Part shown: in pieces, positions 7,401 through 24,917 of the stretch
Layout of the letters: each line of letters begins with the position of its first letter
Numbering within the stretch: the first letter of the stretch is position 1
Assembly (NCBI GenBank): GCA_905221615.1
Contig: CAJNDT010000005.1
Location: 248,001 to 312,000 of the forward strand
DNA length: 64,000 nt
Reading direction: 5' to 3'
Source: Symbiodinium sp. CCMP2592
Lineage: Eukaryota; Sar; Dinophyceae; Suessiales; Symbiodiniaceae
Made by a program: the position numbers and the translations under genes
Notes under the pieces: generated by a model
Told to the model about the DNA's origin: nothing
What the model saw: only the letters and a program-made list of their open reading frames with translations
The model's database searches: none

Positions 7401-10400
7401 TCAGGCAGCCGGATAGGCCCAGAAAGCCCGCAAGGAAAGCGGGGGCGGGGCCGCAGGAGCAGAACCGGCAATGATGGCGCGAGCAAACGAGGCCAAGGAA
7501 GCAGAGCTCGCAGCCAGGAAAACAGGACCTGCAGGGGACCAGAAGTCCAAGAAGACGGCAGAAGGAAGCAGCCGCCGCAAGAGGACGAGGCCCTGATGAC
7601 TGGGGCGCCCGGGAATCCAGAGGGCGCCGAACCGCAGAACAACCTTACAGGACATGCGGAAGGAGATCAAGGCAGCAGCAATCCCCAACAGAGACCATCT
7701 GCCGGAGGTCGCATCGCCAAGAGAAACAGGAGCACCAAGCCCGGAAGACGAGGCGCGACGGAGGACGCCAAGCGACCGGAAGGCCCGGAACTCCCAAGGG
7801 GCAAGGAGCTCCAAGGCTGACCACAGGGGCCAGAAGCAATGCCACGATGGGGGAAGCCGAAAGACCCCACCCATGGCGAGAAGCCCAGGCCACCAGGGTG
7901 TAGGCAGAGCCCAATCCTTGCCTGAGGCGGCCCCATCGACAAAGGAGAACCAAGAGGGCAAGAAACCCACAAATGACAAAGATGAGGCGAGGCGAGACAG
8001 GGAGGGCTCCGAAACTGGAGCCGTAGCTTGGAGAGATCCAAGTCCGGCAGGGGTTGGAGCAGCAATGGAGGACCCTGTGACGGCCCGTTGCAGGTTGCCG
8101 GGGACGAGGTCGGAGAGGGCCGGTGAGCGCTGCGCTGTATCCCACTCCTGTTGCAGCTCCTCCTCATCAGCAGGCAGGCCCAGATCCGCGGCCCGACGCT
8201 GTGCTGGGGTGGCATTGCAGGGCCCGCAAAGGCGTTGTGGGGCAACACCCCTGTGGGCCGTTCTACCCTTGCGTTTGGTGCCAGACCCATACTGGTAGAC
8301 AGGCCCTACCGTCACCCGAAGCCCATGCAAGCAGGCCCGGTGGGATTGCAAATGGTATTTCAGCCGATCCGAAGAGTGGAAATCGTGCATACACCAGAGG
8401 CAGACAGAGCCGGCCATGTAGGCAGTCACATCGGACAGCACGCCATGCTTGCGATGCATGTGGGCTCTGACCGCGTGCAGGCTCGGGAAAAAGATGCTGC
8501 ACACCGGGCATCGATGGGCCTGGGGGGGTCCTATAATTTGGGTGGCCTTACGGGTAGAGAGGTCATCCCACAGCTGAGCACAGGCAGAGTACCTATGTCC
8601 AAACTTGCTGAGTGCCTTGCAGGCGCGAAGGAGGGCACGGCTGTGGGTATGAACAAACAGAACCGTGACGGCGGGGGGAGAGTTCGGGTCCCAAACTTCA
8701 AGCGCAACCCCAACCCTCATACATGCTGCAACGAGGGCCTGGCACCAAGGGAGGGCCCTGTTCCACGCCGCGTCGACGATTTCACGCACCGCCGTGGGTG
8801 CTTTGCAGAAGAGCTGGACGCAAAGGCGACACTGACTGATGGTAGTAGCCAGGTCAGGAGGAGTAATGTCGGCAAGGAGCCGAAGCAGTGGGGTGGTGAG
8901 CTTGTGCCCGACCTGCCACGAGGACAACAGGATCCTGGCCGTGCGATCGAAGAGGCCAGTGAGAGGGGCCGTGGCACGGCCGGAGTCGGCCAGAGACATA
9001 GCAAGGGAGGAATACGCGGAGGGCAGGACTCGTCCCGCGACCCACGCCCGTTTAAGTTCCCAGGGCAAGCAATTGCTGCAGAGGAGGGTGCGGGCAAGGG
9101 AGGCCGCAGCGGCGCCTCGTTGGGCGGCAAGCTCACAATCGCGGCGGCCCGTATCCCGAGGCAGCTGAGCCACACCCAGATACTTATACTCGGGACACAA
9201 CCTGATGCTGTCAGAATCAGAGATCTTTAACATGGCATCGCCAGTAAGGAGAACTCCGCGGGCCGCCCGAGCGCCCTCCCCCCGGATGTCAACAAGGGCC
9301 TCAGTTTTACCCGCACCCAAATTAACACGAAATCGGAGGAGTCGGAGAGTGTCAAGGATAATGCCGACCAGCACGGGCAGTTGAACAAGAAGATCAGCTG
9401 GTCGGTCAAAATCGGCCATAACCGCAAGGTCGTCAGCCCAGCCGATGGGCTTGACCCCTGGGGAGAGGCCGACTTCAGCGCCGGCGCTGGTGTGAACAAT
9501 GCCCTGGCGGGTGGCAACGCGCTGGATGTGCTGAAGACCGACAGCGAAGAGGGCCCCAAAAAGGATATCAGCCAGGCCGTCACCTGGACGAGACCCCCGT
9601 GACGCAAGATAAATGTTGGAAGAGCCAGAGAGTGACCAGTGGGAGAGGGCGACGCAGTCACGGAGGAGCGCAACAACGTCCTCTGTAACCCCCAAGGCAG
9701 CAAGGGCCCCTTGTTGTTGGAGGCTGAGAACCAGCCCAGCAAGGTGGTGATGCTCTGGCAAGGCAACATCATCAGGAAAGCCTTCAAAGAGGAGATCCCG
9801 GCTGGCCTCATAGTACGCGGCCTGGATATCGACGAAGACCACGGCAACACATCGGCCGGCAGAGATGGAAAGGTCCCAGGCACAACGGAAGGCGGCCAAC
9901 GCAAATCCTGTGTGGACACCTTTGCGGCCCCCGAGCTGCATAGGCTCGTATCGCGACAAGACGTGGCCACCCACAGTGGAGCGCAAATGCGAATGCCAGA
10001 GCTTCGCGATGCCGTTCAATAGCGCGATAGAGCGGTAATTGGCAGGAAGAGAGGCAGGGCCCTTCTTGTAAAGGGCACATACAATGGCAGCCTTAAAGGC
10101 AAAAGGCTCCCTTCCTTGGAGAGCGATGCGCACGCACAGGGGCCAGAGCCACTGCCCTGCTGAGGCTCCCTGCGCGCGCCAGAGCTCGTTCCGCAATCCG
10201 TCTGGTCCTGGGGCCTTGGCGGCCGCCTGTCGGACACACATTTGTTCCATCTGCAAGAGGGTAGGAACCGCCTCGGCGCACGGGAGGCGCGGTTCATTCA
10301 TCCATCGCTCAGCGGCGCTGGAGAGCTGCACTGGGCTGACCAGACTGGCCCCCTCCTGATCACGGAACTGGGCCTCCAACTCACTATCAATGTCGAACCC

Positions 10401-13217
10401 ACCGGCTGCGTGGACAGACCGGCGCTCGTGGGCCTTGCGGGAGGCCCAACGCAGATGCCGGATGGATTCCAGAGGGACTCCAGTAGCTTCCCAGTGTTTG
10501 GTCGCCTCCAGAGTAAGTGTGCGGAAATGAGCCAGCTTGTCGGACCTAGCAAGATAGTGGGCCTTCTGCTGAAGCCCCCGAACATGAAGATTACAAGCCT
10601 GGAGAAGGAGGCGGGCATGCTGCAGGCCCGTCGGATCAGGGCGCAGGGGTGCAGGGTGTGTGCACCCCAGACGCCAGACTTGCAAAAGAAAGCGACGCTG
10701 CTGCCACTCCAGATTGGTCCGAAGCCGGGGGAGCTGTTCTCGCGCCTGCCGAACTCGATCGAGTGCGGCAACAGAGGCCGCTGTGATGTAGGGCTGTCGG
10801 ATGGGGCGACGTGGAGGGCGAGGAAGGGCCCGGAGCAAGCAGGAGTGCTTGGTCTTAAGAGCCTGCACTTCAGCTCCCACGCTGTCAATGTGCCGGAAGG
10901 TGGACGGCAGAGCTCCCCAGAGATCGGCAGCAATGGCCCGTGCCTGGTGCACAGTTGCGCGGGGTGGGGCCGGCGCTTTGGGCCGGATGGCCTGGCCCCG
11001 AAGGTCGCACTCGACCAGAAGCGGCATATGATCCCGACGACCATTGAGAATGTCCAGCTCAGGAAGCTGTCGGGTGCGACGGCAGGACCAGGGGCCTGCC
11101 TGGAGCAAGATATGGTCTAGACGCTTGCGGGTGCCGCCAGTATGCTCCCAGGACCAGCCCGGGCCGTCCTGAAGGTCCGAGAAGGAGGCGGGGGCGAGGA
11201 GGCCAAAACGCTGGATGGTATCAAAGAGGCCTTGCTCGCCCGCGCCTTCTTCACCATTACCGAGAGCATCCCCGATATAGGCATGGTCTTCATCGGCCCA
11301 AAGGAGATCAGCGTTAGCATCGAGACCCAGGACTAAAGTGAGGGCCCGTGGGAGCTGGCACAGCTGAGATTGCAGTGAGGACCAAAAGTGGTGGATTTCG
11401 GGCACTGGTCTGTCGGCGTGTGGAGCATGCGCCGCTACAACGGCCAAAGGGAGGTCCGCCCGTTTACAGACTATGACTAAAAGTCTGGGGTCAGCACAGG
11501 CAATCCGCCAGTCATCCAGGCGGAGGGGGGGGTTAACTATCTGGGGCCTAACCCAAATTTCGCAACCGTAGCTACCTTTTTGGGCACCGGAGCGCCAGGT
11601 GAGAAGGCCGGCTGTATCCCATCGGCCCCCTTTGCTGCGCGTCTCCTGAAGGCAGACCACATCAAGGCCCAACTGGGCGACTTGAGAGTACAGGTATTGA
11701 CGCCGCTGGCCATGACCCGAAGGATTGAAGAAGGAGGCACAAGAGTCCCGCATGGTTTGAACGTTAGCCGTAACAATGCGGAGGGATAGCGAGGGTGCTA
11801 GCGGCAACGGTCGCTGGGGCTCTAGCGACGGAGCCGCACAGGGCACCTCGGCGGAAGGGCACTGGACAGCGGGCCCTCGACCTGCTGGTGCGTGGGTAAG
11901 TGACTGCGCGGTGAGACGGATCCAGGGTCTGCCTTGGACCACCTTGGCATGTGGAATGAGCCAGAGCCAAGGCGCCGCTTCCTGCAGCAGAGCGGGGAGG
12001 GCAGCATCGACATGTTTCCAGGGATGCCATGAGGTCCGACCAGCCCAGCCAGCAAGAAAGTCGGCGATCGTATTAGGGAGAATGCCAACATGGCTGTGCA
12101 CGTGCTGAAAGCGAGTGGACATACGGGACTGGACAGCCTGCCAGATATAACGAGTAAGGGTGGTGACTGGCTCATTGGCCTGCGCTTGCCCGGCCGCGAT
12201 CTGGAGCGCAGAGGCATTGTCAACCGCAATGGTGACCTTGGCAGGCGCTGCTGACGTCAGAAGGGAGAGGCGGTCAACCCAGGCGAGGAGCCAGAGGCCC
12301 GCAGCCTGCAAGGCCCAAAGCTCAGCGTGAAAGGAGACACCACTCCCGGGAGCCGCAGTTCCAGAGAACCAAGGGGTATCGGCCCCCGCGGCGCCGAACC
12401 ACCCGACCCGGTGCCACTTGTGACGCCACCAAGCCCATACGCAGAAGGCCCATGCGCCTCCCCGTTCGCCACTCCCATCAGTGGCGATGAGAACCTGATC
12501 GGGTACACCGCCAGACCATACTGGGAAACTAGAGAAGGCCTGGCGATAAGGCGCAGGGGCGGATGCCGGGAGATTCTGGAAGAGGTCGTGCGTCCACCAC
12601 AGCTGGTGCAAGGAAGCCTGAGCGGCACACTCTTGGTGAATATCTGCCGCCCAGGAGAGTCCATCCGGGCTGTGCCAATCTGGCGCCCCCCATGCACGAA
12701 AATAGCAGCTGGTGCGGGAGAGCAACCCGAAATCCACTCCAATGGGCGAAGGCCCTGGAGTCCGCGCAAGGGCATGAGTGGAGACCGGCGGGAATCCAAG
12801 GGCCGCCGTGCCCGGAAGCAATTCGGGCAGCCCAGCCAGAAGAACCCAAGCACTGAGAGAAGAAAACCAGTGCCTACCCAGACGTCCGCGAACGGCCAGA
12901 CTGGCAAGCAACGGGAGCAAGGTGCGGGAGGGAGCGCTGCCCAGGGGGGAGCCGCTGTCACCATCCCGCAGGTGCGCCATGGCGAGGCACAACTCGAACG
13001 CTAAGGGGGGGTCGGGCAGACAAGACATGGGCCCAATGAAGATTAGGGCTTTCAGGGACAAGATGGAGCCCAAGGTCGTCAACCCGGGCTGCTGGAATCC
13101 AGCGGCCGACACTGAACCGGACCAGAGAAGGACGGAAGGTGCAATGTTCAGGATCCCACTGTTCATCACTGGTAGTGGGGACAGTAAGCGGGACCGGGTC
13201 TCCCGAAAACCAAGCAA
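7401..13217 (-). CDS. RNase H / APE endonuclease / reverse transcriptase / zinc-finger polyprotein part (ORF4)
   Basis: This is the enzymatic part of the retroelement. Residue numbers count from the Met at 13217; the first 65-70 codons are probably not used, because the preceding module is coded in another frame until the C7 run at 13005-13011. Residues 82-87 hold the last L-R-D-G-D motif and 100-140 a hydrophobic segment. RNase H spans about 240-395 with D247 (TDGSG), E299, D333 and D386. The endonuclease/exonuclease/phosphatase (APE-type) domain spans about 478-740 with N485, E525 (LQETR), H597, D633/N635 (GLDANAD), D701 and D729-H730. RT spans about 980-1350: motif A D1130 (VVFVDIQAAYYE), motif B near 1206-1217 (SRGSRPGDGL), motif C WADD 1260-1263, motif E YKYLG. 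Two C2H2 fingers follow (C1570/C1573/H1586/H1591 and C1606/C1609/H1622/H1626) and a CGPC at 1664-1667. The last 200 residues are Trp/Leu/Ala-rich and unrecognised. RNase H in front of the endonuclease reverses the usual I-clade LINE order. Confidence 0.85.
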   Translation of the reverse strand: MLGFRETRSRLLSPLPVMNSGILNIAPSVLLWSGSVSAAGFQQPGLTTLGSILSLKALIFIGPMSCLPDPPLAFELCLAMAHLRDGDSGSPLGSAPSRTLLPLLASLAVRGRLGRHWFSSLSAWVLLAGLPELLPGTAALGFPPVSTHALARTPGPSPIGVDFGLLSRTSCYFRAWGAPDWHSPDGLSWAADIHQECAAQASLHQLWWTHDLFQNLPASAPAPYRQAFSSFPVWSGGVPDQVLIATDGSGERGGAWAFCVWAWWRHKWHRVGWFGAAGADTPWFSGTAAPGSGVSFHAELWALQAAGLWLLAWVDRLSLLTSAAPAKVTIAVDNASALQIAAGQAQANEPVTTLTRYIWQAVQSRMSTRFQHVHSHVGILPNTIADFLAGWAGRTSWHPWKHVDAALPALLQEAAPWLWLIPHAKVVQGRPWIRLTAQSLTHAPAGRGPAVQCPSAEVPCAAPSLEPQRPLPLAPSLSLRIVTANVQTMRDSCASFFNPSGHGQRRQYLYSQVAQLGLDVVCLQETRSKGGRWDTAGLLTWRSGAQKGSYGCEIWVRPQIVNPPLRLDDWRIACADPRLLVIVCKRADLPLAVVAAHAPHADRPVPEIHHFWSSLQSQLCQLPRALTLVLGLDANADLLWADEDHAYIGDALGNGEEGAGEQGLFDTIQRFGLLAPASFSDLQDGPGWSWEHTGGTRKRLDHILLQAGPWSCRRTRQLPELDILNGRRDHMPLLVECDLRGQAIRPKAPAPPRATVHQARAIAADLWGALPSTFRHIDSVGAEVQALKTKHSCLLRALPRPPRRPIRQPYITAASVAALDRVRQAREQLPRLRTNLEWQQRRFLLQVWRLGCTHPAPLRPDPTGLQHARLLLQACNLHVRGLQQKAHYLARSDKLAHFRTLTLEATKHWEATGVPLESIRHLRWASRKAHERRSVHAAGGFDIDSELEAQFRDQEGASLVSPVQLSSAAERWMNEPRLPCAEAVPTLLQMEQMCVRQAAAKAPGPDGLRNELWRAQGASAGQWLWPLCVRIALQGREPFAFKAAIVCALYKKGPASLPANYRSIALLNGIAKLWHSHLRSTVGGHVLSRYEPMQLGGRKGVHTGFALAAFRCAWDLSISAGRCVAVVFVDIQAAYYEASRDLLFEGFPDDVALPEHHHLAGLVLSLQQQGALAALGVTEDVVALLRDCVALSHWSLSGSSNIYLASRGSRPGDGLADILFGALFAVGLQHIQRVATRQGIVHTSAGAEVGLSPGVKPIGWADDLAVMADFDRPADLLVQLPVLVGIILDTLRLLRFRVNLGAGKTEALVDIRGEGARAARGVLLTGDAMLKISDSDSIRLCPEYKYLGVAQLPRDTGRRDCELAAQRGAAAASLARTLLCSNCLPWELKRAWVAGRVLPSAYSSLAMSLADSGRATAPLTGLFDRTARILLSSWQVGHKLTTPLLRLLADITPPDLATTISQCRLCVQLFCKAPTAVREIVDAAWNRALPWCQALVAACMRVGVALEVWDPNSPPAVTVLFVHTHSRALLRACKALSKFGHRYSACAQLWDDLSTRKATQIIGPPQAHRCPVCSIFFPSLHAVRAHMHRKHGVLSDVTAYMAGSVCLWCMHDFHSSDRLKYHLQSHRACLHGLRVTVGPVYQYGSGTKRKGRTAHRGVAPQRLCGPCNATPAQRRAADLGLPADEEELQQEWDTAQRSPALSDLVPGNLQRAVTGSSIAAPTPAGLGSLQATAPVSEPSLSRLASSLSFVGFLPSWFSFVDGAASGKDWALPTPWWPGLLAMGGVFRLPPSWHCFWPLWSALELLAPWEFRAFRSLGVLRRASSSGLGAPVSLGDATSGRWSLLGIAAALISFRMSCKVVLRFGALWIPGRPSHQGLVLLRRLLPSAVFLDFWSPAGPVFLAASSASLASFARAIIAGSAPAAPPPLSLRAFWAYPAA

Positions 13218-13350
13218 AGAGGAGTCCAGGCTGCCTAACGCGAAAGGGGCTGCCCCAGAAGGCTAGCTGACGAGCCTGGAGTAGGGTTTCCCAAAACCGC
13301 CCGACAGGTGAGCGGAGGCGCGGGGCCCACGTGGCGCTGGCCAGAGTCAA
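12958..13350 (-). CDS. Out-of-frame segment of the LINE polyprotein (module bridging ORF3 and ORF4)
   Basis: The coding signal moves to this frame between two poly-C runs (13378-13382 and 13005-13011). Just upstream of its Met the frame reads FLRSGDVLTLASATWAP, the R-S-G-D motif missing from the end of ORF3. It continues through CTFRPSLVRFSVGRWIPA, which matches the F-x-F-x-G...P-G-x-W-x-P-V box of the neighbouring modules. At the C7 run the signal passes to ORF4 (PDPPLAFELCLAMAHLRDGD). So this is an internal piece of one polyprotein, not a separate gene. Confidence 0.65.
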   Translation of the reverse strand: MTLASATWAPRLRSPVGRFWETLLQARQLAFWGSPFRVRQPGLLFAWFSGDPVPLTVPTTSDEQWDPEHCTFRPSLVRFSVGRWIPAARVDDLGLHLVPESPNLHWAHVLSARPPLSVRVVPRHGAPAGW

Positions 13351-16300
13351 GACGTCACCAGACCGGAGGAATAAGGTGGGGGTACAGGTCGTAGCAGTAC
13401 CGCAGCCAAGACGTATGACAAGTCAGGAATAAAGTGGCTGCTGGCTCGTGCAAGATCAGCCACAGCACAGGTAGCGGGAAGAAGTGCAGCTCTAGTGGCA
13501 GGCGGGCACTGGAGCAGCACAGTGGCAAACAGCGGAGCCGATGGTACCGGGACCCAGTCGATGAACCGGTGGTCCTGAGGTGGTCGAACCCTGGTGAAAT
13601 CGGACCAAGCGGGTGCGGCCTCCTGGAGAGCAGGTGGGACAAACAGAGATGGTCCCGGAAAAGGTCCAAGGAGGCCCCGGGCTGGGTCCCAGAGGCGGTG
13701 GCGAAAGCCAGGCGGTTCAGCAGCTGACCCGTCACAGTTTGACGTTGCCAAAGACCATTGTCGACTGCCGCTCTCGTGGGGAAGACGTGCCCCCGACACC
13801 GGGGGGAGAGCGAGCAGCCCAGCAAACATGAGAAGATAGCCAGGGGCCAAAGAGGCAGAGCCAAGTGCCCACCAAGCTGCAAGCCCGAAAGAGCAGGGGA
13901 GCCAACAGGAGGGGAAGAGTCCTGGGCAGCCGGAAACAACATCGCCGCTGCGAAGGGTCGTCCCTTGGCGCAGTTCCTGGTGTGGGACACCAAGGACGCG
14001 GGGCTGAGAAGAGATAGATGGGAGCTCAGTCCAGAGTTGCCAGGCATCGGTAACGGCTGTGACAAGGGCACACCAGCAATGGCCGTCTGCTTCCACAATG
14101 ACATTGACCCTCGAAGGGTCCTCCGGCAGCAAAACCAAGTGGGCATGATCCTGGGCGATCCAGGGAACCGGAACCCAACGCCCAGGGTAGTGGAGGCTAA
14201 AGTCACCATCAAAAGTATAATCAAGAGCACGCCAGCGGCTGCCTGCCGGTGCGTGTCCCCGGATGGCTCGAACAGCAGGCCTCCAGAGTATGAAGCTGAC
14301 ACGGGTGGAGACCGAGAAATCAACAGCCCAAATGGCGCAATGCCGCACTTGGGCGTCGGAATGAAAGCACGGGGGCTGGTATTCGGGCGCAAAAGCTGCA
14401 GGAGGCAATGCAACAACCAGGTCTCCAGATCGCCAGCGCACGCCTTGGTCAGATGTGGCATCGGCTGTGAGAGCACTGGGTGCACGAACCGAGAGAGTTT
14501 GCATCGGCTGTAGGAAGCGGAGAGCCGCGCCCAGCCAGGACACAGAGGTAGTGCAGGGCACAAGGATAGAGAAGTGCCGATCCAAGGAGGAGACCGCTAA
14601 ACAGACAAGGTCTGGCGTCAGGGGACGGGGAACAACCAGAAGGGCCGGTATGGCAGCTGTCGGCCACACAGGTGCAACTTCAGCACCCCAAGCTGGGTCG
14701 CAGGAGCGTGTGAGAGCATTGAGCTCTTCGGTAGTCGAGGCAGTGGGTAGTCGCCCAGCCTCCTGGGGACCTGTGAAGGGACTAAGAAGGACAATGTCAA
14801 TCTCTGTGCGATTGGTGAGATCAACCAGATCAGCCGCAGCGGCTGCGGCCCGCCACGGGAAGAAACCCACACGAATTGGCTGTTCCGGCAAATCAAGTGC
14901 GGGAGTCATACCCTGACCGGCACAAACCAAGCAAGCCAGGGCGAGAAGCCGGGGCCATCTGGCCGAAAGGACCACAAGCCAAGCCCAGCGACCAGAGATG
15001 GCGGCGGCAGCAGAAGACGAGGGCCCCCAGCATGGGCGCACAACTGGGCCCGGGGCCGGACCCGCAAGGCTTTGCGGGGGCGGTCCGGTAGGGTCCCAAA
15101 CCGTGTCAGCAGTCGGGTCCAGCACGAGGACATCGCCATCTCGGAGAGGACTGTCTGCACGAACGTACTGCAGAGCAGGTAGAAGGCGCCACCCAGGTGG
15201 AGCACGGTAGGCATTGCAACCAGCGAGCAACAACCCCTGAGGCTCAAGATCGGGAGGCAGTAAGAGAAGGACATGAGCCTCACCAGTGGAGGTGCTGTGT
15301 ACCAGGTGCAGACTGGAGAGATCCCCAGAGAGGACAGGAACCCACGACCCTGACAGCGCTCTGCCATTAAGACTCCAGAAGGTGGGGCCCTCAGGATCCC
15401 AATAGCCGGTATCCCTGATCCGAATACAGTGGCCAGATCGACGGCCCGTATACCACAGGCAGACGTAGCCGCCCGAGTCAAAGCGAAAAGGGAGCGACCA
15501 GCTGGCAACTTGCCGTGCCCGGTCCAGAGAGGCATACTGCAGCAAGGGATAACGGGTAGCACCCGGATCGGAAGGCTCAGGAAGGAGGCTAAAAGCATCG
15601 CCGTTGCGGAGCCGGATATGCGCATTCGGGATGGTAGTGCGCAGCACAGGTGGTGCTATGACGCGCCAAAACCGGGTGTGAGGAAAGACGCGAACAGCAA
15701 GCCGGTGAATGTCATCGAGAGACGAGTCCACCGAGGCAAAAGCAACGGCCGAACACCCCTCAATGTGCAGGGCCACAGTAGCAAGACCGTATGGTGCAAC
15801 CGGAGCGACTGTGATCTGCGAAATTGGGAGCACCGCCCGGACAGGGAAGAAGCGATGGGCCCAAAGCCCGCAGTGGCGCGTACCTTCCTGCTCGATAGAC
15901 CGCCATGATCTGGTCGTGTCAAGGAAGCTGGTCTCGCTCCAGCCCCTCAGGGGGCACAAAACACGAGCCGTGAGTGGTCGGGGACCAGGGAAGTAACGTG
16001 CGAGTGGGCCATCAGGGCTCTCGGGCTGCCAGCCACCTAGCGGAACATAGGGCTCCCCATCATTGAAATCGATGGCAGGGGGAAAGAACCTCCCCGGCCA
16101 GGGATAGGAGGGTGAGCGACTTCTGCTGGGCCGTCGCCTAGTGCGGATGGTACGCGCCTCGGAAGAGTCCGCGCTGGGGCAGCGGCCAGAGGCACTGGAG
16201 GACGCTCCCCACACAGGTTCAAGAAGCCCGAAGAAGACAAGAGCTAGCAGGAGAGGGCGCCTCCCCAGGAGACCGAAAGCAGCAGAAAGGACCCACCAGT

Positions 16301-16442
16301 CTCCGTCCCCTGGTCTGAGCAACCTGACAAGCCTGGCTGGATGCAGGTCGAAGGGAGTACCCGGCAATATAGAAATCGTGCGCAGCGTCCCGAGCGGTTT
16401 CAACACACCTTGTGGCCCCACTAGACTGAATAATATTGGCAT
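13347..16442 (-). CDS. LINE polyprotein, middle part (ORF3): repeated R-x-G-D modules
   Basis: Its frame takes over from ORF2 at the C6 run 16474-16479 and ends in a stop just past the C5 run 13378-13382. The annotated start is simply the first Met; the coding signal begins about 11 codons earlier. It holds R-x-G-D motifs near 16305 (RPGDGDW), 15602 (LRNGDAF), 15133 (LRDGDVL), 14428 (WRSGDLV) and 13942 (LRSGDVV). Tryptophan boxes of the type P-G-R-W-V-P-V-P-W lie between pairs. Hydrophobic segments at about 16290-16205, 15000-14910 and 13910-13795 end in small-residue sites (VWGASSS, CAGQGM, VSGARLP) like signal-peptidase sites. The function is unknown; composition and spacing suggest small compact, possibly beta-grasp-like, domains, which is inference. 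Confidence 0.7.
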   Translation of the reverse strand: MPILFSLVGPQGVLKPLGTLRTISILPGTPFDLHPARLVRLLRPGDGDWWVLSAAFGLLGRRPLLLALVFFGLLEPVWGASSSASGRCPSADSSEARTIRTRRRPSRSRSPSYPWPGRFFPPAIDFNDGEPYVPLGGWQPESPDGPLARYFPGPRPLTARVLCPLRGWSETSFLDTTRSWRSIEQEGTRHCGLWAHRFFPVRAVLPISQITVAPVAPYGLATVALHIEGCSAVAFASVDSSLDDIHRLAVRVFPHTRFWRVIAPPVLRTTIPNAHIRLRNGDAFSLLPEPSDPGATRYPLLQYASLDRARQVASWSLPFRFDSGGYVCLWYTGRRSGHCIRIRDTGYWDPEGPTFWSLNGRALSGSWVPVLSGDLSSLHLVHSTSTGEAHVLLLLPPDLEPQGLLLAGCNAYRAPPGWRLLPALQYVRADSPLRDGDVLVLDPTADTVWDPTGPPPQSLAGPAPGPVVRPCWGPSSSAAAAISGRWAWLVVLSARWPRLLALACLVCAGQGMTPALDLPEQPIRVGFFPWRAAAAAADLVDLTNRTEIDIVLLSPFTGPQEAGRLPTASTTEELNALTRSCDPAWGAEVAPVWPTAAIPALLVVPRPLTPDLVCLAVSSLDRHFSILVPCTTSVSWLGAALRFLQPMQTLSVRAPSALTADATSDQGVRWRSGDLVVALPPAAFAPEYQPPCFHSDAQVRHCAIWAVDFSVSTRVSFILWRPAVRAIRGHAPAGSRWRALDYTFDGDFSLHYPGRWVPVPWIAQDHAHLVLLPEDPSRVNVIVEADGHCWCALVTAVTDAWQLWTELPSISSQPRVLGVPHQELRQGTTLRSGDVVSGCPGLFPSCWLPCSFGLAAWWALGSASLAPGYLLMFAGLLALPPVSGARLPHESGSRQWSLATSNCDGSAAEPPGFRHRLWDPARGLLGPFPGPSLFVPPALQEAAPAWSDFTRVRPPQDHRFIDWVPVPSAPLFATVLLQCPPATRAALLPATCAVADLARASSHFIPDLSYVLAAVLLRPVPPPYSSGLVTS

Positions 16443-19400
16443 GCCCCTGAGAGGGAGACTGCTCGACGAGCCAGGGGGGAGCGCCTAGATGTCCATGGCA
16501 GGGGGCCCAGCGGTGGTGGCCAAGCTCAACCTCATGATGCAGCACTGTAGCTGCCGTTGCGTCCCATTTGGCCTGATGGCCCAGCAACACGACCCTAGCG
16601 GAACGGCTAGGGGACCACAGAAGCACACAGGAGGCTTGGGCCACCACAAAATCAGAGTGCCAGGCCGCAGCGGCATGGGCAGCACCCCATGTCAAGTACA
16701 CCGGGGGCTCGCGAGGCCCTGCGAGAGGGTCCAGTTGGAGAGGGCAGACAGCTAGGACGTCCCCAGAGCGGAGTGCGAGGACTGGCCGATCAGAGTGAGC
16801 GGTGGCCCCCAATCCGGGCTGGAGTTTAAGGCTCACGCGGCGGCCAAGCCTCATCTGGAGGGCCTGAGTGAGGTCTCGAGGGGTAAGGAAGGACGGCAGG
16901 ATGACACAGAGCATCTGACCTAAACCCAAGACAATAAGGCAAACCAGCCTACTTCCCGGGAGAGGGACAACAACCTGGGACCCTTCCAAAACCAGGCCAG
17001 TGGCAGCAAATCCCCGATGCCATGATGTCAAAGTGCGGTGGGCGTCTGCCATAACATCATCGAAAAGGTGACGTGGGTCGGCCTCAACACGATGCCATGG
17101 TGCAAAAGGGTTGGCAACAGTGACCGAGACCCTGGGTGGGGCAGCTGGTGGAATAACCGAGGATGTGGTCTGGCTCAACACCGAAGTTTCCGGAACCATA
17201 GCTTGCGCGCCATGTAGGCACCAGGTCAGCATAAGAAGACGGGAGAAAAAGCCGGAATGAGCCCCAAGGGAAACCAGCAGAATCGAAAGAAAGGTGCCCG
17301 TACGACAGGAGGAGAAAGCTGGGACGAGGCCCAGGGCCAAACCCCACAGAAGTGGACGGCCGCTGCAGGCCCCTCGGGCAAAGTCGCCGAACACGACATC
17401 CCCGTTCCGAAGCTCACAGGCCTGATTGAGAGCGTAGGAGGGGACTCCCCCCACTTGCAGGGATCCAGGGAGGAAGTGCAGTTGATCGGCAAGGCTATCG
17501 CGCGAGGCGATCCGATCAACGGTACGGCAGAGGCGGCCTTCGGGAGAGGCAGCAACCACGTTAACCTGAGCCGCAACACCATGGACCTCGATCAATTGCA
17601 ATGCCCGGGCACCGGACCACTGAACGGGTGTCCACATGCCCGGAAAGTGGTTACGGAAAGTGCCGGTGAACGTAAAGGATTCTGGGCACCAGGCTTCTCC
17701 AGCTGAGACAGAGGCCAACAGGGGTGGGCGATTGGGGCGAAGCAGGTGCACAGAAATGCCGAACATAAGTTGAAAGCCCGTAGCCCAGGGAGCGTGGTGA
17801 GCTGCAAGGCCATCCTGCAGGTGCCAAGGATCGACAAACTCGAGCGGCTCGGAAGGGTCCTCCGGAGGGTCATGGATGTACACGACATCGCCGTTGCGAA
17901 AACGGAAAGCCGCGGGCGGAACATCAAAGAGCTCGCAGATCGCGAGCCCGTGCGGCAGGGAAATGCCATCAACGGGGCTATTGATGTGACGCGAGATAAA
18001 GGCTGTCAACCACGCCACTGTCATGGTCCGCGGGGTAAGCGTGGCCCGGTGGTGGCCCCGCCACATCAGCATAATGGTCACAAGGGCCGCATCTTGTCCC
18101 ACCGGGACCATGGACAACTCGTTGAAGGCGGGGCCCGGCCACACAGGAAAGAAATCAGATGCCCATCCCGGGTCGTCGTTGAGGAACTGAGCCCAGACTT
18201 GACCGTGGCGAGTGTCATGGGAGGCTGTGTATGGGGGAAACACCCCCAAGAAGGGACTATGCAGAACAACATAGACCGGGTCCTCTGCCGTAATGGCGGA
18301 AAAGTCGCGGTTGATTGGATCGGTACCCCAAGGAAATCCACCTGGTCTATGCATGCCTTGTGCTAGAGCAGCGCCAGCAAGGAGTCCAAGAGAGAGGCAC
18401 ATTGATGGGGTAAGCCGGCAGAAGATCAGCGAGAAACAGCCCCAAGACAAAACGGGGCGACCTTGTGAGGAGGAGGGGATGTCGGGGCTGCCGGTAGCAA
18501 GTTCATCTTCGCTGGTCAGGGCAGCAAAGGCGGCGACTTGTTCCGGCGGAGGAGGAGACCGTGACTGAGAGCGGGGTCGCACAGCCAGACAGTCGCCATT
18601 GCGGAACTGGACGACCGAGGACCCTTCCTGAACCTCAGGGGGGCGAAGATCGTACTCACTCCCGTCAAGCTGCAGAGCGCGTAATGCCGCGGTCCCAACA
18701 CAGACCGGGAGACAGCAGGGCACAAGGCGGCCTTCCAGCACAATACCAACAGCTGCGTTCCCAGGTGCTTGCGGACACCCGATAAGGTGTACAGCAGTAG
18801 CATCAGGCTGCGGTTGCAGGAGCACAATATCGGCCCAACCCCGGCTGCGGGCGTGTCCCCTGAATAGAACAAAGGGATTGATCTCAGGGCCAGCAGAGTA
18901 CTCAACAAGCTCGCATTGCTGTCGGGCGGTGAAGGGATTGTGAATGCAAAAGGGGGTGCCGAGAGGAATAGCGGCAGCAAAGGTCCGCAGGCCTCGCTGG
19001 AGACCAAGCAAATCGGCTTGAACACGGCGGACAGTGTCCTCGTCCGCGGCGGGCTCCCTTTCAACTGAAGACGGCCAGAGGCCTAACGCATAGTCCTCCA
19101 GCGGCCGGGCGGCGCGGAGGAACCACATACGAGGCTGGAAAGGGGCATTGACAGGCTCTGGTGGTGGTGGGCCGGCAGGTCGAGAGACCGGGGTGGGCTC
19201 AGCGGCAGACATGTTGAAGGCTTGGACAGGTGGTGGGCCTGCATCCTCGGACTGTTCATCGTCTGAACTAGCAGGTGGCGCACTGATAATCGAACCTGCA
19301 CCTAAGGTTGCGAGGACAAGGAGGCGCCCGAAAGCCGAAGATCCAAATAAACCCCGAGTGCAGACTAAGGAGAGAACAACCACCGAAAGCCTATCCTGTC

Positions 19401-22400
19401 GCCGGCAGTTCGACACACTCGCAATATCGAGCAGATCAACAGTGGAGGGGCTGACCGCAGCACAAGCACTTTGCGAGGCAAGTCGCAGAACAGGTTGCGA
19501 TTCCCCAGCCGGTTCTGCATCCGGTTCAGCAAGTCCGGCCCAGAGTCGTGAAGTGTGAAAAGAAAGCTCCTGAGATAGCATGTGAACTCGGGAAACCGTG
19601 GCATGATCAAGGCCGGTGCCATTACCTGAGAGGTCCGTTTGGACTTCCTGGTCAATCAAAGGCACATGCGATGCGCCGGCGGCACGTCGGTTCCCGTGGC
19701 CATCGAGGAGGATGGCAGGTTCTAGCGCCGGACCCCTACTCGGAACATGCCGGAAGTAGGGTCCCTCAACCACCAGGGGATCCGGGTTCCAAGGGTCATC
19801 ATCACCCGGGATCCTTGCAAGAGCACCAATCAAAATCTGAATGACAGCTCCGGATGGAAAATCAGGCAAGGCAACTCCTGGCGGGTACAGCTGACCGGCG
19901 TAGGAAAGAGCGGGGCTCCGCTCTGGTAAATGGCCCCCCGGGAAGAGAGCTCTGAGATGGGCAGAGACGACATCCCAACTAAAGGGCGAATGCCCGAAAG
20001 TAACGGCCGCAGCGTCCCCCCAGTGGAGCAGCCAAAACCGGACCGTGGGTCGCGTAGCAGGAACGACCGGCACGAAAAGGACATGCTGGACGGAGCTGTC
20101 CGTAGTGGAATGTGTGGGCTGGAACTCACCGGGATCGTCAATATGGTGGAGACGGCACATCAGCTCTCTCAACCAACGGGTCGGGTAACCCTGAGGACGC
20201 CATGGAAGGTCAACGGGTGCATTAATGTTGAGAGTCCAGATGCGAATGGTTGTCGGAGGAGGCGGCGAAGCCTCAGCGACTGGGGCCAGAGCAAGGAGTT
20301 GGGGAGGTTGCATAGAGGCCACGTGGCGGCAAAGCAGGAGCAACGCGAGACTGCCGAAAAGCGAGGGGAGCCGGGCCCGGGCCGCGACAATTTTAAGAAC
20401 TCCATCAACCAGTTTACCCTCTAGTCCCGGAAGAACACTAGTAATAAGTGCCCGAGCCCCTTGCGGGCAGGGAGACATATGGCGGACTTCGGCAGAGGGC
20501 TCAACGTTATGGACAGCCCCATCCGGCTCCACAGCGCAGAAGAAGAATGTGCAATGGGAAGTGTAGTGCTGGACCACCGGTCGGAGAAGCTCACAACCGA
20601 TTGAGTCACGCAGTATCCACCAGCCATATGGTGAAGGCGGGGAAACGATGAGATCAAGCACTTGAGGGCTGGAGTCAAAAGCGACGTGCAGTCCGTACTC
20701 GCAGTCCGGCAAGAAGGCGCCAAGGTAAGCACTAAGATGCTGATCAAGGTGGCGTGCACCAACCCTCAAGTGGACGGGGCCTTGCCCGGGAAGCCAAAGG
20801 TGCATCTGCACTTCTGGGTGAGGTGAGGCGCCAGTAACATACGCACCAAGTTGAGGTGCTGAAAGGGCGAACCCGTGCGTCTGCCGGGCAAGCTCGTGAG
20901 TCCAAGACATGGTGCAGGGCCGTGAAAAGTCGCGACAAGTTTGCAGTGTCTCGGATTCCGCGAGACGAGAGAACAAGGGAGCAGGCTCAACCATCACGCG
21001 GACTGACACCACAGGGAGAAGGAGGCTGAGAGCACACAAAAGCGAGTACCGCCGCAAGCAGGGCAAGCCAAGAGCAGCGGAGGCCAAAGGGCCCGGGGGC
21101 GGTGGCGGGCTAGGCGTCTCGGCCTCGCAATTACGCACCAGTTGGGAGACTCCTTCAGGAGAGTCGTACCCAACACTGACACACTGCATCGCAACACCTG
21201 TGATGTCACGGGGAAATGGCCAGACACGGCTGTCGCTGGACAGAAACGTTTGTGGTAGCTCCCAGAGAGACAGGGAAAGAGCCTGTGCAACTGCTTCCCA
21301 GGAGGGGACAGGGGTGCACATACCGTAGAGTCGGCTCCCCTCTCGGAGGGCCCACACGGTGAATCCGGGCAGACATGCAACCAGGCACTTGACGTGCCAT
21401 GCATCGCACCAGAGGTCAACGAGTTCGGACGCAGAGTCAGGTGTGACACCGGCACCGCAAACAGACGGGGGTGCCTGGAGTACAGCAGCCGGCGTGCTGG
21501 CAGAAATGAAGGGGGCGTTAGTTTGGGAACCTATACTATGGAAAACCCGAGCCCTAGGGGGAGGGAGGGGCGGAGGCGTGCGAACAAGTCTCGGCTCCCA
21601 GCTGAGGCTCAAAAGGTGCTCCCGGGCCCGTGCAAAGTCAGCCTGCACATGGACATGCCAGTAGCGACAGTCAGCTCGACCAGGAAAGGAGGTGCATTCC
21701 CAGGTTAGAACAGAGAGGCCGAAGGGCTGCAACCTTCGAAGCAGAGCAGCGGCGGGGCGGTTGCTGCGAAGAAGACTTTCCAAAAAGGCCGGGAAAGATT
21801 CAAAGACGCCGGAAAAGGCCAAGTGCAGACCCACAGCAGAGGGGTCAGACGCATCAGTCACCCGATATGTGACACAGTCCTGGCCAGGGAAGGCGGCGAC
21901 GAAGGCGGCATGAGGGAGAAGGTCAGCTCCGGGTAGCGCGACGAAGACATGCTGGCCTGGGGTAACGCTGCGCAACAACGCACCCAGCACAGAAGTATCA
22001 AGGTCACAAGCACGCGGGACCTCGAAAGATAACACGCCAGCCACAGGATGAAGCAGCGACACGATTCGGCCTTCCTGAAGCCAGCGCGATGCAGTGCCAA
22101 CATTGTGTGGAATAACAAAAGCTGAGACATCGAGGGTGCGCGCCTCAGTGTTGACACGCACTCGTACCACGTCGCCTTGGCGAAGCCGATGTGCCGTGCC
22201 CCGAAGGATCTGGACGTCAGCCGAAGCAGCCGCTAGCTGCGCAGCCTCAAGAACATGATCAGCACTGTATTCCTTGGGTAGCTCAACACAGACAACCTCT
22301 CTACCTAGGTCCAGAAGAACAGTTAGGGTCTCAGGGCGGGACGGGAGAGCCACAAGATTAACCGCCTCAAGAGTAGGGCCTGCAGAGGCAGCAACAATCT

Positions 22401-24627
22401 GAGGGCGACCTATTCGGATGGCCTGACGGTAAAGCTCGGCGGCCGCATCGCGAGCACTCTCAGTGTTGGCAAACTCAAGGCGGACCGAAGATCCGGGCCA
22501 CCAAAGGCGGCAAGTAATGAGAAACACCTCACTGGCGGAGGGAAAAACTGACCAAAGCGGTCCGTCACCAAAGTCGCCAACCTGAAGCCACCTGGCCTGT
22601 AAATGCGTGTGGGCACCTGCTGGTGCCGCAACCTGACGGTCAGGAGCCCTATTAGCTGAAACCACAACATCCCTAGGAGTGGCTGGCGCACTGTGCATCT
22701 GAACGGCATTACCAGGCATCCCACAGGAGATGACGAGGCACGCACCCCAAACAAGGAGGCTCCCGACGCCATGGTGTGGCCCGCGCAACACACAAGCAGC
22801 CAAAAGAATACCCCGAGTGCCGCTGTATTGGCTAACGACCGATGAAGAAGCCGAGCCAGGCTCGGCGGCCGACACCAAGGCACTGGGGGAAGTGGTGCTG
22901 AGAAACTCAGACGGAGTGACTCCAGTGCAAGCGGGCATGGCAGTAGACGAGGAAGCCCTAGCAGGGGAGGGCAACAGGGTGTGCTGCAGCGCAGAAATGG
23001 TGTCAGAGGTGCCCGGGGTGTCCCAGCCGCCTACCTGGTCCTCCGAGGAGGAGGAAGAGTCTTGACGAAAGACATGCGGGAAGAACATGACAACAATCGG
23101 GACACTGCTGGTGAGGACCTGATCTGGTAATACCGCAAGCTCTCGATGGAGGAGGCCGAACCCGCCACGGGCGCACTGTTCGACCCACTCGTGGGGGAGG
23201 CTGCTGCGGTCCCGTCGAGAAGCAACCGTAACCGCCGCAAGAGCAGTAACAGGAGGAGGAACGCAAACAGTAGTCAGCCTCCAGCCAACTGGACGGAAAT
23301 CGAGAATGCAAGGTACCTCATCCCTAGTACAGTGTACCTCCATGAACTGCACAAGGGGAAGGGAAGGAAGCGGATGCCAGATGCGGAGGACCCCCCCACA
23401 AGCACTGGGAGATGCCCTAGTAGACACAATACGTCGAAACGTAGCGGCGTCAGCAAATACCGGGGCTTCGACATACACCAGTCCATTAGGGGTGATAAGG
23501 ACAGCTTGGTTATGCGAGTGGCCCGGGAAAGCTTCGTGGGCTGAGGGTGCCGTCGGGAGGCTCACCTGCATGGACGAGAACAACGAAAGGGGGGGATCCA
23601 AAGAAGCACCGACAGGTCCTTGCAGCGCATCAGCAGCTGGGCCAATATGAAATTGCAGAGTGTCGACGTCCTGCAGAAGGAGGGGTTGGGACATCAGCGT
23701 CAACCATCCCCAGGGGCACTTAGCAAGCAGAAGGTCAACTTCAGTCTGCATCGTCTGAGCCGCGAGAGCAAGGACCGCAATGGCTCTGCAAGTAGAGTCA
23801 CGGGGGCACATAAGCATGCATATGCGGCCTCCCAGCGGGCGGAGGTCAACGGGCAGCCAGACTTGACGCCATGAACAGGCAGCCGGAGTGAGAAGAAGCT
23901 GCTCACTTGGCAGGCCGGGAAGGACCCCGCGGATGGCTGAGATAGAGAAGACACCAACAGGGAATCCCAAGGTGGCAGCAAGCCGGGCATGCAAGAGCGG
24001 CCCATGCAACCATTCGTCAACCAGGAAAGGGACAGGGCAAGGTTCGAGAATGGGAGCTCCAGGCGGTGTACCCACAAAGACAGCAAGGTGCCGACGACTG
24101 CGGTCGGTGCGTGGGAGAAGCAAGTTACCCGTACGGCCGACAGGGTAAACCTCACACATTTCCTCAGCAGTAGGAGTGGGCAGAACCGGCCCCGTACTGA
24201 GGACAGGGAGGCCCTCATGAAAGCCGTGGGCATGTAATTGCACAGCAGTGGAGGATCTCAGCCCCCAGGAGGAGACAACCGCCGCGCCGAGGTGGAGAGT
24301 GACGCCATCGGCAACTGAAAGGTAGAGCAGCAGAAGCGTCATCCTCAGGCAGGGCCCACTGTTCCGGCACGGACGCACTGGAGTACGGTGCCTAGCTCCC
24401 CGAACCTTAAGACCCGCAGAAAGGACCCCAGCACCGCACGCCACGCCAGGTTCTCCAAACATAGCAGCCCTGAGGCGAGTGACCCATGCCAAAGGCAGGA
24501 CGAGCCCGCAAGCACAGCGCCAGTGATGCGAAGTCCAAGACAGGGCAAGGAGGGCATGGGGGTAAAAGTCCATACCCCAACCTGGGAGGAAGGCAAGAAG
24601 CTCACTGATGCCTGCACACATCATCAT
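16219..24627 (-). CDS. LINE polyprotein, N-terminal part (ORF2): repeated modules with internal signal-like segments
   Basis: The open frame runs from 26742 to 16219, but its first ~600 codons overlap ORF1 and look like a shadow. I place the start at the Met triplet 24627-24619, though translation could begin anywhere after the ORF1 stop at 24918. About 2,800 residues follow. R-x-G-D motifs occur near 22180 (LRQGDVV), 18598 (FRNGDCL), 17890 (FRNGDVV), 17400 (LRNGDVV) and 16763 (LRSGDVL). Hydrophobic segments lie near 24830, 24340, 22770, 21030, 20340, 19340, 18400 and 17280; several end A-x-A-like before Gln-x-Met (ALAQGM, GAQAM). Pro/Ser-rich linkers occur at 23050-22850 and 21600. The last ~85 codons after the C6 run at 16474-16479 are probably out of frame. 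No enzyme motif is recognised. Confidence 0.7.
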   Translation of the reverse strand: MMMCAGISELLAFLPGWGMDFYPHALLALSWTSHHWRCACGLVLPLAWVTRLRAAMFGEPGVACGAGVLSAGLKVRGARHRTPVRPCRNSGPCLRMTLLLLYLSVADGVTLHLGAAVVSSWGLRSSTAVQLHAHGFHEGLPVLSTGPVLPTPTAEEMCEVYPVGRTGNLLLPRTDRSRRHLAVFVGTPPGAPILEPCPVPFLVDEWLHGPLLHARLAATLGFPVGVFSISAIRGVLPGLPSEQLLLTPAACSWRQVWLPVDLRPLGGRICMLMCPRDSTCRAIAVLALAAQTMQTEVDLLLAKCPWGWLTLMSQPLLLQDVDTLQFHIGPAADALQGPVGASLDPPLSLFSSMQVSLPTAPSAHEAFPGHSHNQAVLITPNGLVYVEAPVFADAATFRRIVSTRASPSACGGVLRIWHPLPSLPLVQFMEVHCTRDEVPCILDFRPVGWRLTTVCVPPPVTALAAVTVASRRDRSSLPHEWVEQCARGGFGLLHRELAVLPDQVLTSSVPIVVMFFPHVFRQDSSSSSEDQVGGWDTPGTSDTISALQHTLLPSPARASSSTAMPACTGVTPSEFLSTTSPSALVSAAEPGSASSSVVSQYSGTRGILLAACVLRGPHHGVGSLLVWGACLVISCGMPGNAVQMHSAPATPRDVVVSANRAPDRQVAAPAGAHTHLQARWLQVGDFGDGPLWSVFPSASEVFLITCRLWWPGSSVRLEFANTESARDAAAELYRQAIRIGRPQIVAASAGPTLEAVNLVALPSRPETLTVLLDLGREVVCVELPKEYSADHVLEAAQLAAASADVQILRGTAHRLRQGDVVRVRVNTEARTLDVSAFVIPHNVGTASRWLQEGRIVSLLHPVAGVLSFEVPRACDLDTSVLGALLRSVTPGQHVFVALPGADLLPHAAFVAAFPGQDCVTYRVTDASDPSAVGLHLAFSGVFESFPAFLESLLRSNRPAAALLRRLQPFGLSVLTWECTSFPGRADCRYWHVHVQADFARAREHLLSLSWEPRLVRTPPPLPPPRARVFHSIGSQTNAPFISASTPAAVLQAPPSVCGAGVTPDSASELVDLWCDAWHVKCLVACLPGFTVWALREGSRLYGMCTPVPSWEAVAQALSLSLWELPQTFLSSDSRVWPFPRDITGVAMQCVSVGYDSPEGVSQLVRNCEAETPSPPPPPGPLASAALGLPCLRRYSLLCALSLLLPVVSVRVMVEPAPLFSRLAESETLQTCRDFSRPCTMSWTHELARQTHGFALSAPQLGAYVTGASPHPEVQMHLWLPGQGPVHLRVGARHLDQHLSAYLGAFLPDCEYGLHVAFDSSPQVLDLIVSPPSPYGWWILRDSIGCELLRPVVQHYTSHCTFFFCAVEPDGAVHNVEPSAEVRHMSPCPQGARALITSVLPGLEGKLVDGVLKIVAARARLPSLFGSLALLLLCRHVASMQPPQLLALAPVAEASPPPPTTIRIWTLNINAPVDLPWRPQGYPTRWLRELMCRLHHIDDPGEFQPTHSTTDSSVQHVLFVPVVPATRPTVRFWLLHWGDAAAVTFGHSPFSWDVVSAHLRALFPGGHLPERSPALSYAGQLYPPGVALPDFPSGAVIQILIGALARIPGDDDPWNPDPLVVEGPYFRHVPSRGPALEPAILLDGHGNRRAAGASHVPLIDQEVQTDLSGNGTGLDHATVSRVHMLSQELSFHTSRLWAGLAEPDAEPAGESQPVLRLASQSACAAVSPSTVDLLDIASVSNCRRQDRLSVVVLSLVCTRGLFGSSAFGRLLVLATLGAGSIISAPPASSDDEQSEDAGPPPVQAFNMSAAEPTPVSRPAGPPPPEPVNAPFQPRMWFLRAARPLEDYALGLWPSSVEREPAADEDTVRRVQADLLGLQRGLRTFAAAIPLGTPFCIHNPFTARQQCELVEYSAGPEINPFVLFRGHARSRGWADIVLLQPQPDATAVHLIGCPQAPGNAAVGIVLEGRLVPCCLPVCVGTAALRALQLDGSEYDLRPPEVQEGSSVVQFRNGDCLAVRPRSQSRSPPPPEQVAAFAALTSEDELATGSPDIPSSSQGRPVLSWGCFSLIFCRLTPSMCLSLGLLAGAALAQGMHRPGGFPWGTDPINRDFSAITAEDPVYVVLHSPFLGVFPPYTASHDTRHGQVWAQFLNDDPGWASDFFPVWPGPAFNELSMVPVGQDAALVTIMLMWRGHHRATLTPRTMTVAWLTAFISRHINSPVDGISLPHGLAICELFDVPPAAFRFRNGDVVYIHDPPEDPSEPLEFVDPWHLQDGLAAHHAPWATGFQLMFGISVHLLRPNRPPLLASVSAGEAWCPESFTFTGTFRNHFPGMWTPVQWSGARALQLIEVHGVAAQVNVVAASPEGRLCRTVDRIASRDSLADQLHFLPGSLQVGGVPSYALNQACELRNGDVVFGDFARGACSGRPLLWGLALGLVPAFSSCRTGTFLSILLVSLGAHSGFFSRLLMLTWCLHGAQAMVPETSVLSQTTSSVIPPAAPPRVSVTVANPFAPWHRVEADPRHLFDDVMADAHRTLTSWHRGFAATGLVLEGSQVVVPLPGSRLVCLIVLGLGQMLCVILPSFLTPRDLTQALQMRLGRRVSLKLQPGLGATAHSDRPVLALRSGDVLAVCPLQLDPLAGPREPPVYLTWGAAHAAAAWHSDFVVAQASCVLLWSPSRSARVVLLGHQAKWDATAATVLHHEVELGHHRWAPCHGHLGAPPWLVEQSPSQGHANIIQSSGATRCVETARDAAHDFYIAGYSLRPASSQACQVAQTRGRRLVGPFCCFRSPGEAPSPASSCLLRAS

Positions 24628-24917
24628 GGCAAAGGGCGGGCACACAGTTGCCGCAGCCCACCACGCGGAGGCAGAAAGGGTGCAACCAAGCTGCCAAGAG
24701 CGTTGCCAGGACAATCTGGGACCGTAGGCCGAAAAGAACCTCTCAGTGACAGCCGAGACTCTACGTATGGCTATACACACTATGATGCAGCGCCCGAGGA
24801 AAAGGCTGACCGTGATCAAAATAAGGTGTGAACAAACACACCCTATTTGAGCACGATCAGCAGGGCAAACTGCTACAAGGTCGGGGCCGTTGCAGAGCGG
24901 CTGGTGTTCTCGCCGAT

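Follow-up and report, generated by a model that had tools for sequence, protein, structure and literature searches.

A giant LINE of Symbiodinium with tandem modules of predicted ubiquitin-like fold and hydrophobic borders

The element and its host

The window analyzed here, a 64-kb stretch of DNA of Symbiodinium sp. CCMP2592 (contig CAJNDT010000005.1, positions 248,001 to 312,000 of the forward strand), contains on its minus strand a long interspersed nuclear element (LINE) of ∼19.6 kb that runs from ∼26,918 to 7,275 of the window, with the ends placed by eye against other copies, and consists of two open reading frames (ORF1 and ORF2) followed by a (GTGA)n-like tail. The product of ORF2 is a giant polyprotein, ∼5,700-5,900 residues long, whose N-terminal two thirds (∼3,900 residues) precede the RNase H, the APE endonuclease and the reverse transcriptase (RT); this upstream part carries tandem modules that are predicted to adopt a ubiquitin-like fold and are bordered by hydrophobic segments (Table 1). 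The window copy has three frameshifts in ORF2, near 16.3k, 13.4k and 12.97k, which fit decay and assembly error alike.

The element is a LINE, that is, a non-long terminal repeat (non-LTR) retrotransposon, as indicated by a LINE-type RT (weak by score), the APE endonuclease, the simple-repeat 3' tail, variable flanks, many copies and the lack of LTRs, given that no direct repeats of at least 80 bp (seed 14) were found in 6800-27400. The RNase H profile PF00075 matches four of the four subfamily members searched (best E-value 2.4e-5), the window's own match, at 2.2e-4, being under the curated cut-off. The RT profile yields five weak matches among solved sequences (E 0.03-0.11), namely, an RNA-directed DNA polymerase (8c8j) and four LINE-1 ORF2 proteins, and RVT_1 matches one of the four members (E 0.014). 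In the order of domains along ORF2, the RNase H stands ahead of the endonuclease; in LINEs, it usually follows the RT. The NPGP of the 2A motif D(V/I)ExNPGP is absent from 14 stretches scanned in their three sense frames, which represent mostly the pre-RT part, with the RT part of the window outside the scan, and no relatives were confirmed in IMG/VR or in prokaryote genome contigs when the queries were the enzyme part and a piece of the RT, not the modules.

Pfam gives no match for ORF1 up to E 1. In ORF2, the first conserved ATG is at 24627; no slippery heptamer common to all copies was found, and no ATG was seen ahead of the hydrophobic segment J0 in those copies that were inspected by eye. 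This segment is a conserved hydrophobic frame that sits between the ORF1 stop and the first conserved ORF2 ATG.

The host is a dinoflagellate: the genome searched for copies (1.098 Gb, 5,383 contigs) contains 429 exact copies (217 forward and 212 reverse, against 0 for the reversed control) of a pattern that we take to be the dinoflagellate spliced leader, along with 25 matches to DVNP, a protein with 0 matches in 14 control genomes.

Tandem modules with a predicted ubiquitin-like fold

The original prediction, made from the sequence alone, described small repeated domains ending in L-R-[NSDQ]-G-D inside a LINE, arranged in tandemly duplicated modules of two, possibly beta-grasp, domains with a W-x-P-V box in each pair. 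The modules indeed lie inside a LINE, as witnessed by the APE, RT, RNase H and 3' tail, and the tandem duplication is apparent from self-BLAST, in which 17904-17388 aligns with 14438-13931 (E 8e-19) and 15611-15254 with 13368-13008 (E 1e-11). In leave-one-out searches with a hidden Markov model (HMM), domains A1, A2, A4, B1 and B4 outscore 500 of 500 shuffles, with weaker results for A3 (4 of 500 shuffles reach the score) and B3 (1 of 500). The modules, then, do align to each other by both methods, and at least the part from 18.3k to 12.9k consists of homologous modules. Further upstream, X1 and X2 are additional relatives of the module domains, with low HMM scores of 8.3 and 6.3 bits before their inclusion, the best decoy reaching 7.8. 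After the inclusion of X1, X2 and A5, the HMM detects ten LRxGD-type domains in the open copy, each of which was part of its training set, and beyond X1 and X2 it has no matches above decoys in 24.3k-18.9k. Profile-profile comparison agrees, with one weak match close to B3, a domain outside the training set, and weaker matches on the reversed sequence.

The motif readings had to be corrected in part. A scan for [LVIF][RKH][NSDQEG]G[DE] on both strands finds 10 sites within the element, each on the minus strand, as well as one elsewhere in the 64 kb; 10 of the 12 motif positions originally listed fall inside these sites, and those at 14428 and 16305 need correction. The sequence is F-R-N-G-D at 18598 and 17890 and W-R-S-G-D at 14428, and the L-R-P-G-D noted at 16305 is a wrong-frame reading, with T-R-D-G-D found there in the open copy. 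Computed from the originally listed positions, the spacing of 460-490 bp within pairs holds for four pairs (490, 458, 469 and 486 bp), the fifth, at 398 bp, being outside the range, and the gaps to the next pair are 637, 703, 705 and 582 bp. Two modules have a clear W-x-P-V box (PGMWTPV, PGRWVPV), and three carry a degenerate form of it (SGSWVPV, GRWIPA, HHRWAPC).

AlphaFold2 predicts for domain A1, from an alignment of the 10 window repeats, a structure of two strands, a helix and four short strands, with a predicted local distance difference test score (pLDDT) of 85.4 and a predicted template-modelling score (pTM) of 0.72. When this model is compared with the PDB using Foldseek, the best match has E 1.8e-3 at a probability of 1.00, none being below 1e-3, and template-modelling (TM) scores are 0.33-0.49 by query and at most 0.60 by target. 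Among the 50 matches listed, nearly all are ubiquitin-like by title or as known proteins (TBCE, FAF1 UBL1, SUMO, ubiquilin, EccD), and the one plainly non-ubiquitin-like protein is a viral VP30 domain; a comparison with viral models gives many ubiquitin-like proteins mixed with others, again none below 1e-3. The model of the whole module M4 (14867-13911, from six rows) is middling (pLDDT 68.7, pTM 0.64, with the five models spanning 47-69) and, in our reading, shows four repeats of strand-strand-helix-strand. Its best matches are the ubiquitin-like (UBL) domains of USP7 (E 5e-7), followed by linear tetra-ubiquitin, OASL, FAT10 and ISG15, with 27 matches at E of at most 1e-3.

The suggested beta-grasp fold is thus borne out in the models predicted for a single domain and a single module, which have it in common. 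The composition of the module is another matter: by the middling M4 model, four ubiquitin-like domains fit better than two, so that a module probably consists of four, with the W-x-P-V box belonging to a further domain ahead of each second LRxGD domain. Within 18 residues after the 11 xRxGD motifs of the open copy, Gly-Gly does not occur, and in five other copies it does so in two places only, in one copy each. Because there is no C-terminal Gly-Gly, the domains represent a ubiquitin-like fold and not a conjugated modifier.

Copies of the element and purifying selection

A search with the enzyme part gives 26 matches in the same genome (24 of 1,935 candidates scored), and a search with module M1 gives 128 scored matches (of 404 candidates), which fall in identity groups of ∼95-100%, 81-86%, 78-80% and 63-65%, along with a group at 29-33%. 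Many matches of the last group share a contig with a closer match ∼3.4 kb away, as M4 would. Open frames in the other copies reach 6,547 codons. The copy used as the reference, C4168, has an open frame across the modules, RNase H and APE that shifts within the RT; C2112 and C1380, with 70% and 50% identity to the reference in the module region, respectively, are open from the fetched start for 5,927 and 5,862 codons.

The ratio of nonsynonymous to synonymous substitution rates (dN/dS) in the module region was estimated by the Nei-Gojobori method, with a script of our own, for nine copies against C4168. In C134, C191 and C524, dS is saturated, which leaves six usable comparisons. In five of these, dN/dS is ∼0.1 over 2,122 to 3,743 codons: 0.11 in the window copy, 0.13 in C946, 0.11 in C1546 (dS 0.27), 0.09 in C1009 (dS 0.25) and 0.12 in C5097. 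The corresponding values for the RNase H-APE-RT-C-terminus part, relative to the window, are 0.07 in C1009, 0.08 in C1546 and 0.07-0.23 in closer copies, and the stretch ahead of the RNase H and the C-terminal tail are less constrained (0.22-0.26 in C1009 and C1546). Strong purifying selection on the modules, which are nearly as constrained as the enzymes, is well supported.

Among the other copies, C3646 has lost most of the modules in frame, with the first unit joined to the last module and the frame open into the enzymes. In C2112, C447, C5172, C1780 and C5329, pairs of M1 in the same orientation lie 14-17 kb apart, as if in head-to-tail arrays of the element.

Hydrophobic segments at the module borders

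Signal-like hydrophobic segments had been predicted to follow most pairs of domains, and such segments do recur at the module borders, as well as further upstream. Ten of them (J0 and J2-J10, with J11 left out) were compared across copies; they had been chosen for hydrophobicity in the reference, so that the other copies provide the test. In C134, C191 and C5063, with 20-63% identity in the borders, all 25 rows have a best 12-residue hydropathy above the background median, and 11 of them are above its 95th percentile. The subfamilies represented by C2112 and C1380 have segments at the same places for J2-J10, J0 not being covered, so the segments are kept at 70% and ∼50% identity. At equal local divergence, the borders of C1380 contain 5 acidic residues in 328 positions, against 158 in 1552 elsewhere, and their mean hydropathy is 0.86 versus 0.00; the borders have fewer acidic residues and higher hydropathy in all five copies (acidic residues, p 8e-9 to 3e-3), of which C191 and C5063 are close kin and are not independent. 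Substituted hydrophobic residues remain hydrophobic more often in the borders in four copies (p 0.0002-0.044; 0.11 in C1380).

Several segments end like signal-peptidase sites, for example, J4 in VAS-M, AAS-M, AAA-M, SAA-M or VAA-M and J7 in AQA-M, AHA-M, AAA-M or CQA-M, and the (-3,-1) small-residue rule is obeyed in 46 of 49 rows picked by hand at nine borders, although control windows do so nearly as often. A strict signal-peptide rule finds no site in the enzyme part, and its site count in the upstream part is moderately above chance at best. The character kept in diverged copies is stronger evidence than this strict rule. By eye, some borders (e.g. J5, J7 and J9) consist of two short hydrophobic halves around basic residues.

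Lysine depletion

The module region of C4168 contains 7 lysines in 3,754 residues, compared with 35 in 1,450 for the RNase H-APE-RT-C-terminus part of the window (Fisher's test, p 6e-8 relative to asparagine, a control whose codons likewise start with AA, and 8e-11 relative to arginine). Seven other copies have 5-17 lysines per 3,200-3,735 aligned residues. The two parts have a similar base composition at fourfold sites; the modules are ∼twofold below the lysine content that it predicts, and the enzymes are far above.

Other features of the window

The window is rich in interstitial TTTAGGG-like arrays, and the element is inserted within one of them; telomere targeting was considered and rejected, because several other copies, judged by their 3' flanks, are not in such repeats. 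A 107-bp tandem array (28027-29963, 17.7 copies, ∼63% matches) is also present, and CTGTACTACTA-type tandem arrays are found close to both window ends (466-1128 and 61822-62238).

Table 1. Features of the element in the window
Feature	Position	Strand	Remarks
Whole LINE	7275..26918	-	∼19.6 kb, (GTGA)n-like 3' tail; by comparison with other copies
ORF1	24918..26450	-	510 aa from MAPKASS, basic N-terminus
J0	24751..24831	-	hydrophobic segment
ORF2	7401..24627	-	in-frame ATG at 24627 kept across copies, a possible start
J2	22696..22818	-	hydrophobic border segment
X2	22153..22332	-	LRQGD-type domain, homologue of the module domains
J3	20992..21087	-	border segment
J4	20311..20385	-	border segment, ends VAS-M
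J5	19282..19407	-	border segment
X1	18574..18759	-	FRNGD-type domain
J6	18352..18462	-	border segment, ends AQG-M
Module M1	17383..18279	-	LRxGD domains 18087-17869 and 17571-17383, W-x-P-V box between
J7	17197..17364	-	border segment, ends AQA-M
Module M2	16299..17133	-	frameshift near end in window copy
J8	16194..16298	-	border segment, ends PVWGASSS
Module M3	15114..15974	-	self-BLAST, HMM
J9	14907..14999	-	border segment, ends GQG-M
Module M4	13923..14804	-	modelled: four predicted ubiquitin-like domains, ∼14804-14625, 14612-14403, 14339-14121, 14114-13923
J10	13782..13916	-	border segment
Module M5	12957..13676	-	two frameshifts in window copy
J11	12798..12929	-	hydrophobic segment ahead of enzymes
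RNase H domain	12033..12512	-	N-terminal to endonuclease
APE-type endonuclease	11058..11708	-	PF03372, E 3e-10, above its cut-off
Reverse transcriptase	9003..10304	-	RT motifs by eye, weak profile matches
Zinc-finger-like C/H region	8346..8519	-	E 0.4-0.9, weak

Possible functions of the modules

The predicted fold and the selection on the modules are well supported; what the modules do is a question on which several readings compete. The one we prefer, tentatively and at somewhat less than even confidence, is that of a polyprotein of lysine-poor ubiquitin-fold arrays that is inserted into a membrane and probably cut at several of the borders by signal peptidase. Insertion, cleavage, topology and the role of the arrays are what we infer, as follows. 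The border segments would function as internal signal or signal-anchor sequences that thread the nascent chain into the membrane of the endoplasmic reticulum or the nuclear envelope; signal peptidase would cut at several A-x-[AGS]-M-like borders to release separate ubiquitin-fold arrays, and the RNase H-APE-RT part would remain on, or return to, the cytosolic or nuclear side. The arrays might then form a scaffold, membrane-associated or lumenal, by which the ribonucleoprotein (RNP) is anchored or sheltered, with the absence of lysine keeping them from ubiquitylation. A more far-reaching version, which we consider rather doubtful, makes the RT the tail of a secretory-pathway polyprotein, in which ∼ten lysine-poor ubiquitin-fold modules, each with its own signal sequence, would be freed by the host signal peptidase. 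If this is true, the LINE makes membrane or lumenal proteins, possibly exported and envelope-like, during its life cycle.

A number of observations speak against the membrane-inserted polyprotein or against the evidence from which it is built. With regard to the borders, a column that obeys the small-residue rule is present in 18 of 20 junction windows but also in 12 of 16 equally diverged non-junction windows, and J0, J3, J5 and J10 have no such column at the chosen place in all rows. The strict signal-peptide rule finds 6 sites, including one within a domain, compared with a shuffle mean of 2.3 (standard deviation 1.5, maximum 9 in 200 shuffles). The segments are short, the position-independent insertion scale is below 0 for J0 only, and a stretch inside domain M2b gets a better insertion score than every border except J0. 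An RT located behind J11 would be lumenal unless the topology alternates. N-glycosylation sequons are rare, with 3 in 3,754 residues. The lysine desert is partly compositional, to the extent of about half of the depletion, because fourfold-site composition alone predicts ∼0.4% lysine in the modules; moreover, lysine deserts are reported for cytosolic proteins of the ubiquitin pathway (PMC10169902), an analogy that points away from the lumen. Regarding the fold, the five M4 models differ widely in confidence, and the M4 matches have low TM scores (0.13-0.24 by query, among the 50 matches listed) and high root-mean-square deviations; flexible arrays would give such values, and a poor model might too. 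The domains are matched by no sequence family, searches of Pfam and of PDB sequences having given nothing convincing, and for the other upstream units (24.3k-18.9k), the resemblance to ubiquitin is one seen by eye only. Finally, one copy, C632, has a dN/dS of 0.62 (1,750 codons), which fits both decay and misaligned ends.

The main competing reading is that of an array that stays uncut in the cytosol and deals with the ubiquitin system. The hydrophobic segments would then be buried linkers or assembly contacts, and the arrays a scaffold or decoy docking to ubiquitin receptors, the proteasome or segregases and thereby protecting or positioning the LINE RNP. We regard this as a real, if doubtful, contender: the best structural matches are tandem UBL proteins such as USP7, the border segments have weak insertion scores, and the lysine depletion of the modules recalls the conserved lysine deserts with which UBL proteins, e.g. 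the shuttle proteins RAD23A and UBQLN1, are reported to prevent their own ubiquitylation (PMC10169902). What it leaves unexplained is that the borders keep their hydrophobicity and remain nearly free of acidic residues despite the divergence of the letters. These features could alternatively belong to uncleaved transmembrane hairpins or anchors of a protein that spans the membrane several times and has its ubiquitin-fold arrays on one side, as the paired hydrophobic halves around basic residues might suggest; however, the halves are short for membrane spans, and the small-residue ends would have no explanation, even though such ends are not beyond the control, so that this arrangement seems unlikely.

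That the upstream part is selfish ballast or a chance open frame without a protein function, in keeping with the in-frame loss of most modules in C3646, the dN/dS of C632 and the lower number of stops in GC-rich DNA, is highly improbable, being contradicted by the dN/dS of ∼0.1 in the other five comparisons and by an architecture that is unchanged at 50% identity. Polyubiquitin-like maturation, in which deubiquitinase-type cutting after each domain would free the units, is hardly credible either, given the lack of Gly-Gly after the motifs, despite the linear tetra-ubiquitin among the structural matches.

Relation to known systems and implications

The element resembles the LINEs that combine APE with RNase H in having ORF1 and ORF2, PF03372, an RT weakly nearest to LINE-1 ORF2, a simple-repeat 3' tail and many diverged copies, and differs from them in its length of ∼19.6 kb, the ∼3,900 pre-enzyme residues with predicted ubiquitin-fold modules in ORF2, and the RNase H located before the endonuclease. 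Tandem UBL proteins (USP7, OASL, FAT10, ISG15) and linear ubiquitin share with the modules the predicted fold and the tandem order; unlike these, the modules have no detectable sequence similarity to them, lack Gly-Gly ends and are encoded by a retrotransposon.

SymbioLINE-Dnmt of Symbiodinium is likewise a dinoflagellate LINE with an additional domain under purifying selection, in that case a DNA methyltransferase in ORF1 (PMC5890265), whereas ORF1 of the present element has no Pfam match and hence no match to a DNA methyltransferase. In LINEs with 2A-like peptides, proteins are made as a polyprotein, as is proposed here, and such peptides can double as signal sequences, which has been shown for sea-urchin NLR proteins (PMC4981915); unlike these LINEs, the present element has no NPGP in the stretches scanned. 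Giant size, with thousands of residues of accessory domains, is also characteristic of the gypsy-like Burro and the Penelope-like Terminons, which belong to other classes of retroelements and for which the available text of PMC6431247 describes no ubiquitin-fold arrays. No LINE with ubiquitin-like or beta-grasp arrays appears among the matches listed in a search of the full-text literature, as judged by titles and the beginnings of abstracts, with subscription journals and preprints outside the search.

What is understood of LINE life cycles comes from elements with two compact ORFs, and the present element is ∼three times the usual length of a LINE. We know of no studied LINE with a membrane step or a ubiquitin-system step. 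Conserved tandem modules of predicted ubiquitin fold, together with signal-like borders and the near absence of lysine, would point to a LINE step that involves membranes or the ubiquitin system and hint at a life cycle unlike those of the well-studied LINEs. Because a single genome contains many open copies that have diverged to various degrees, the question is testable. The modules would also show that ubiquitin-fold arrays can evolve past the reach of sequence families.

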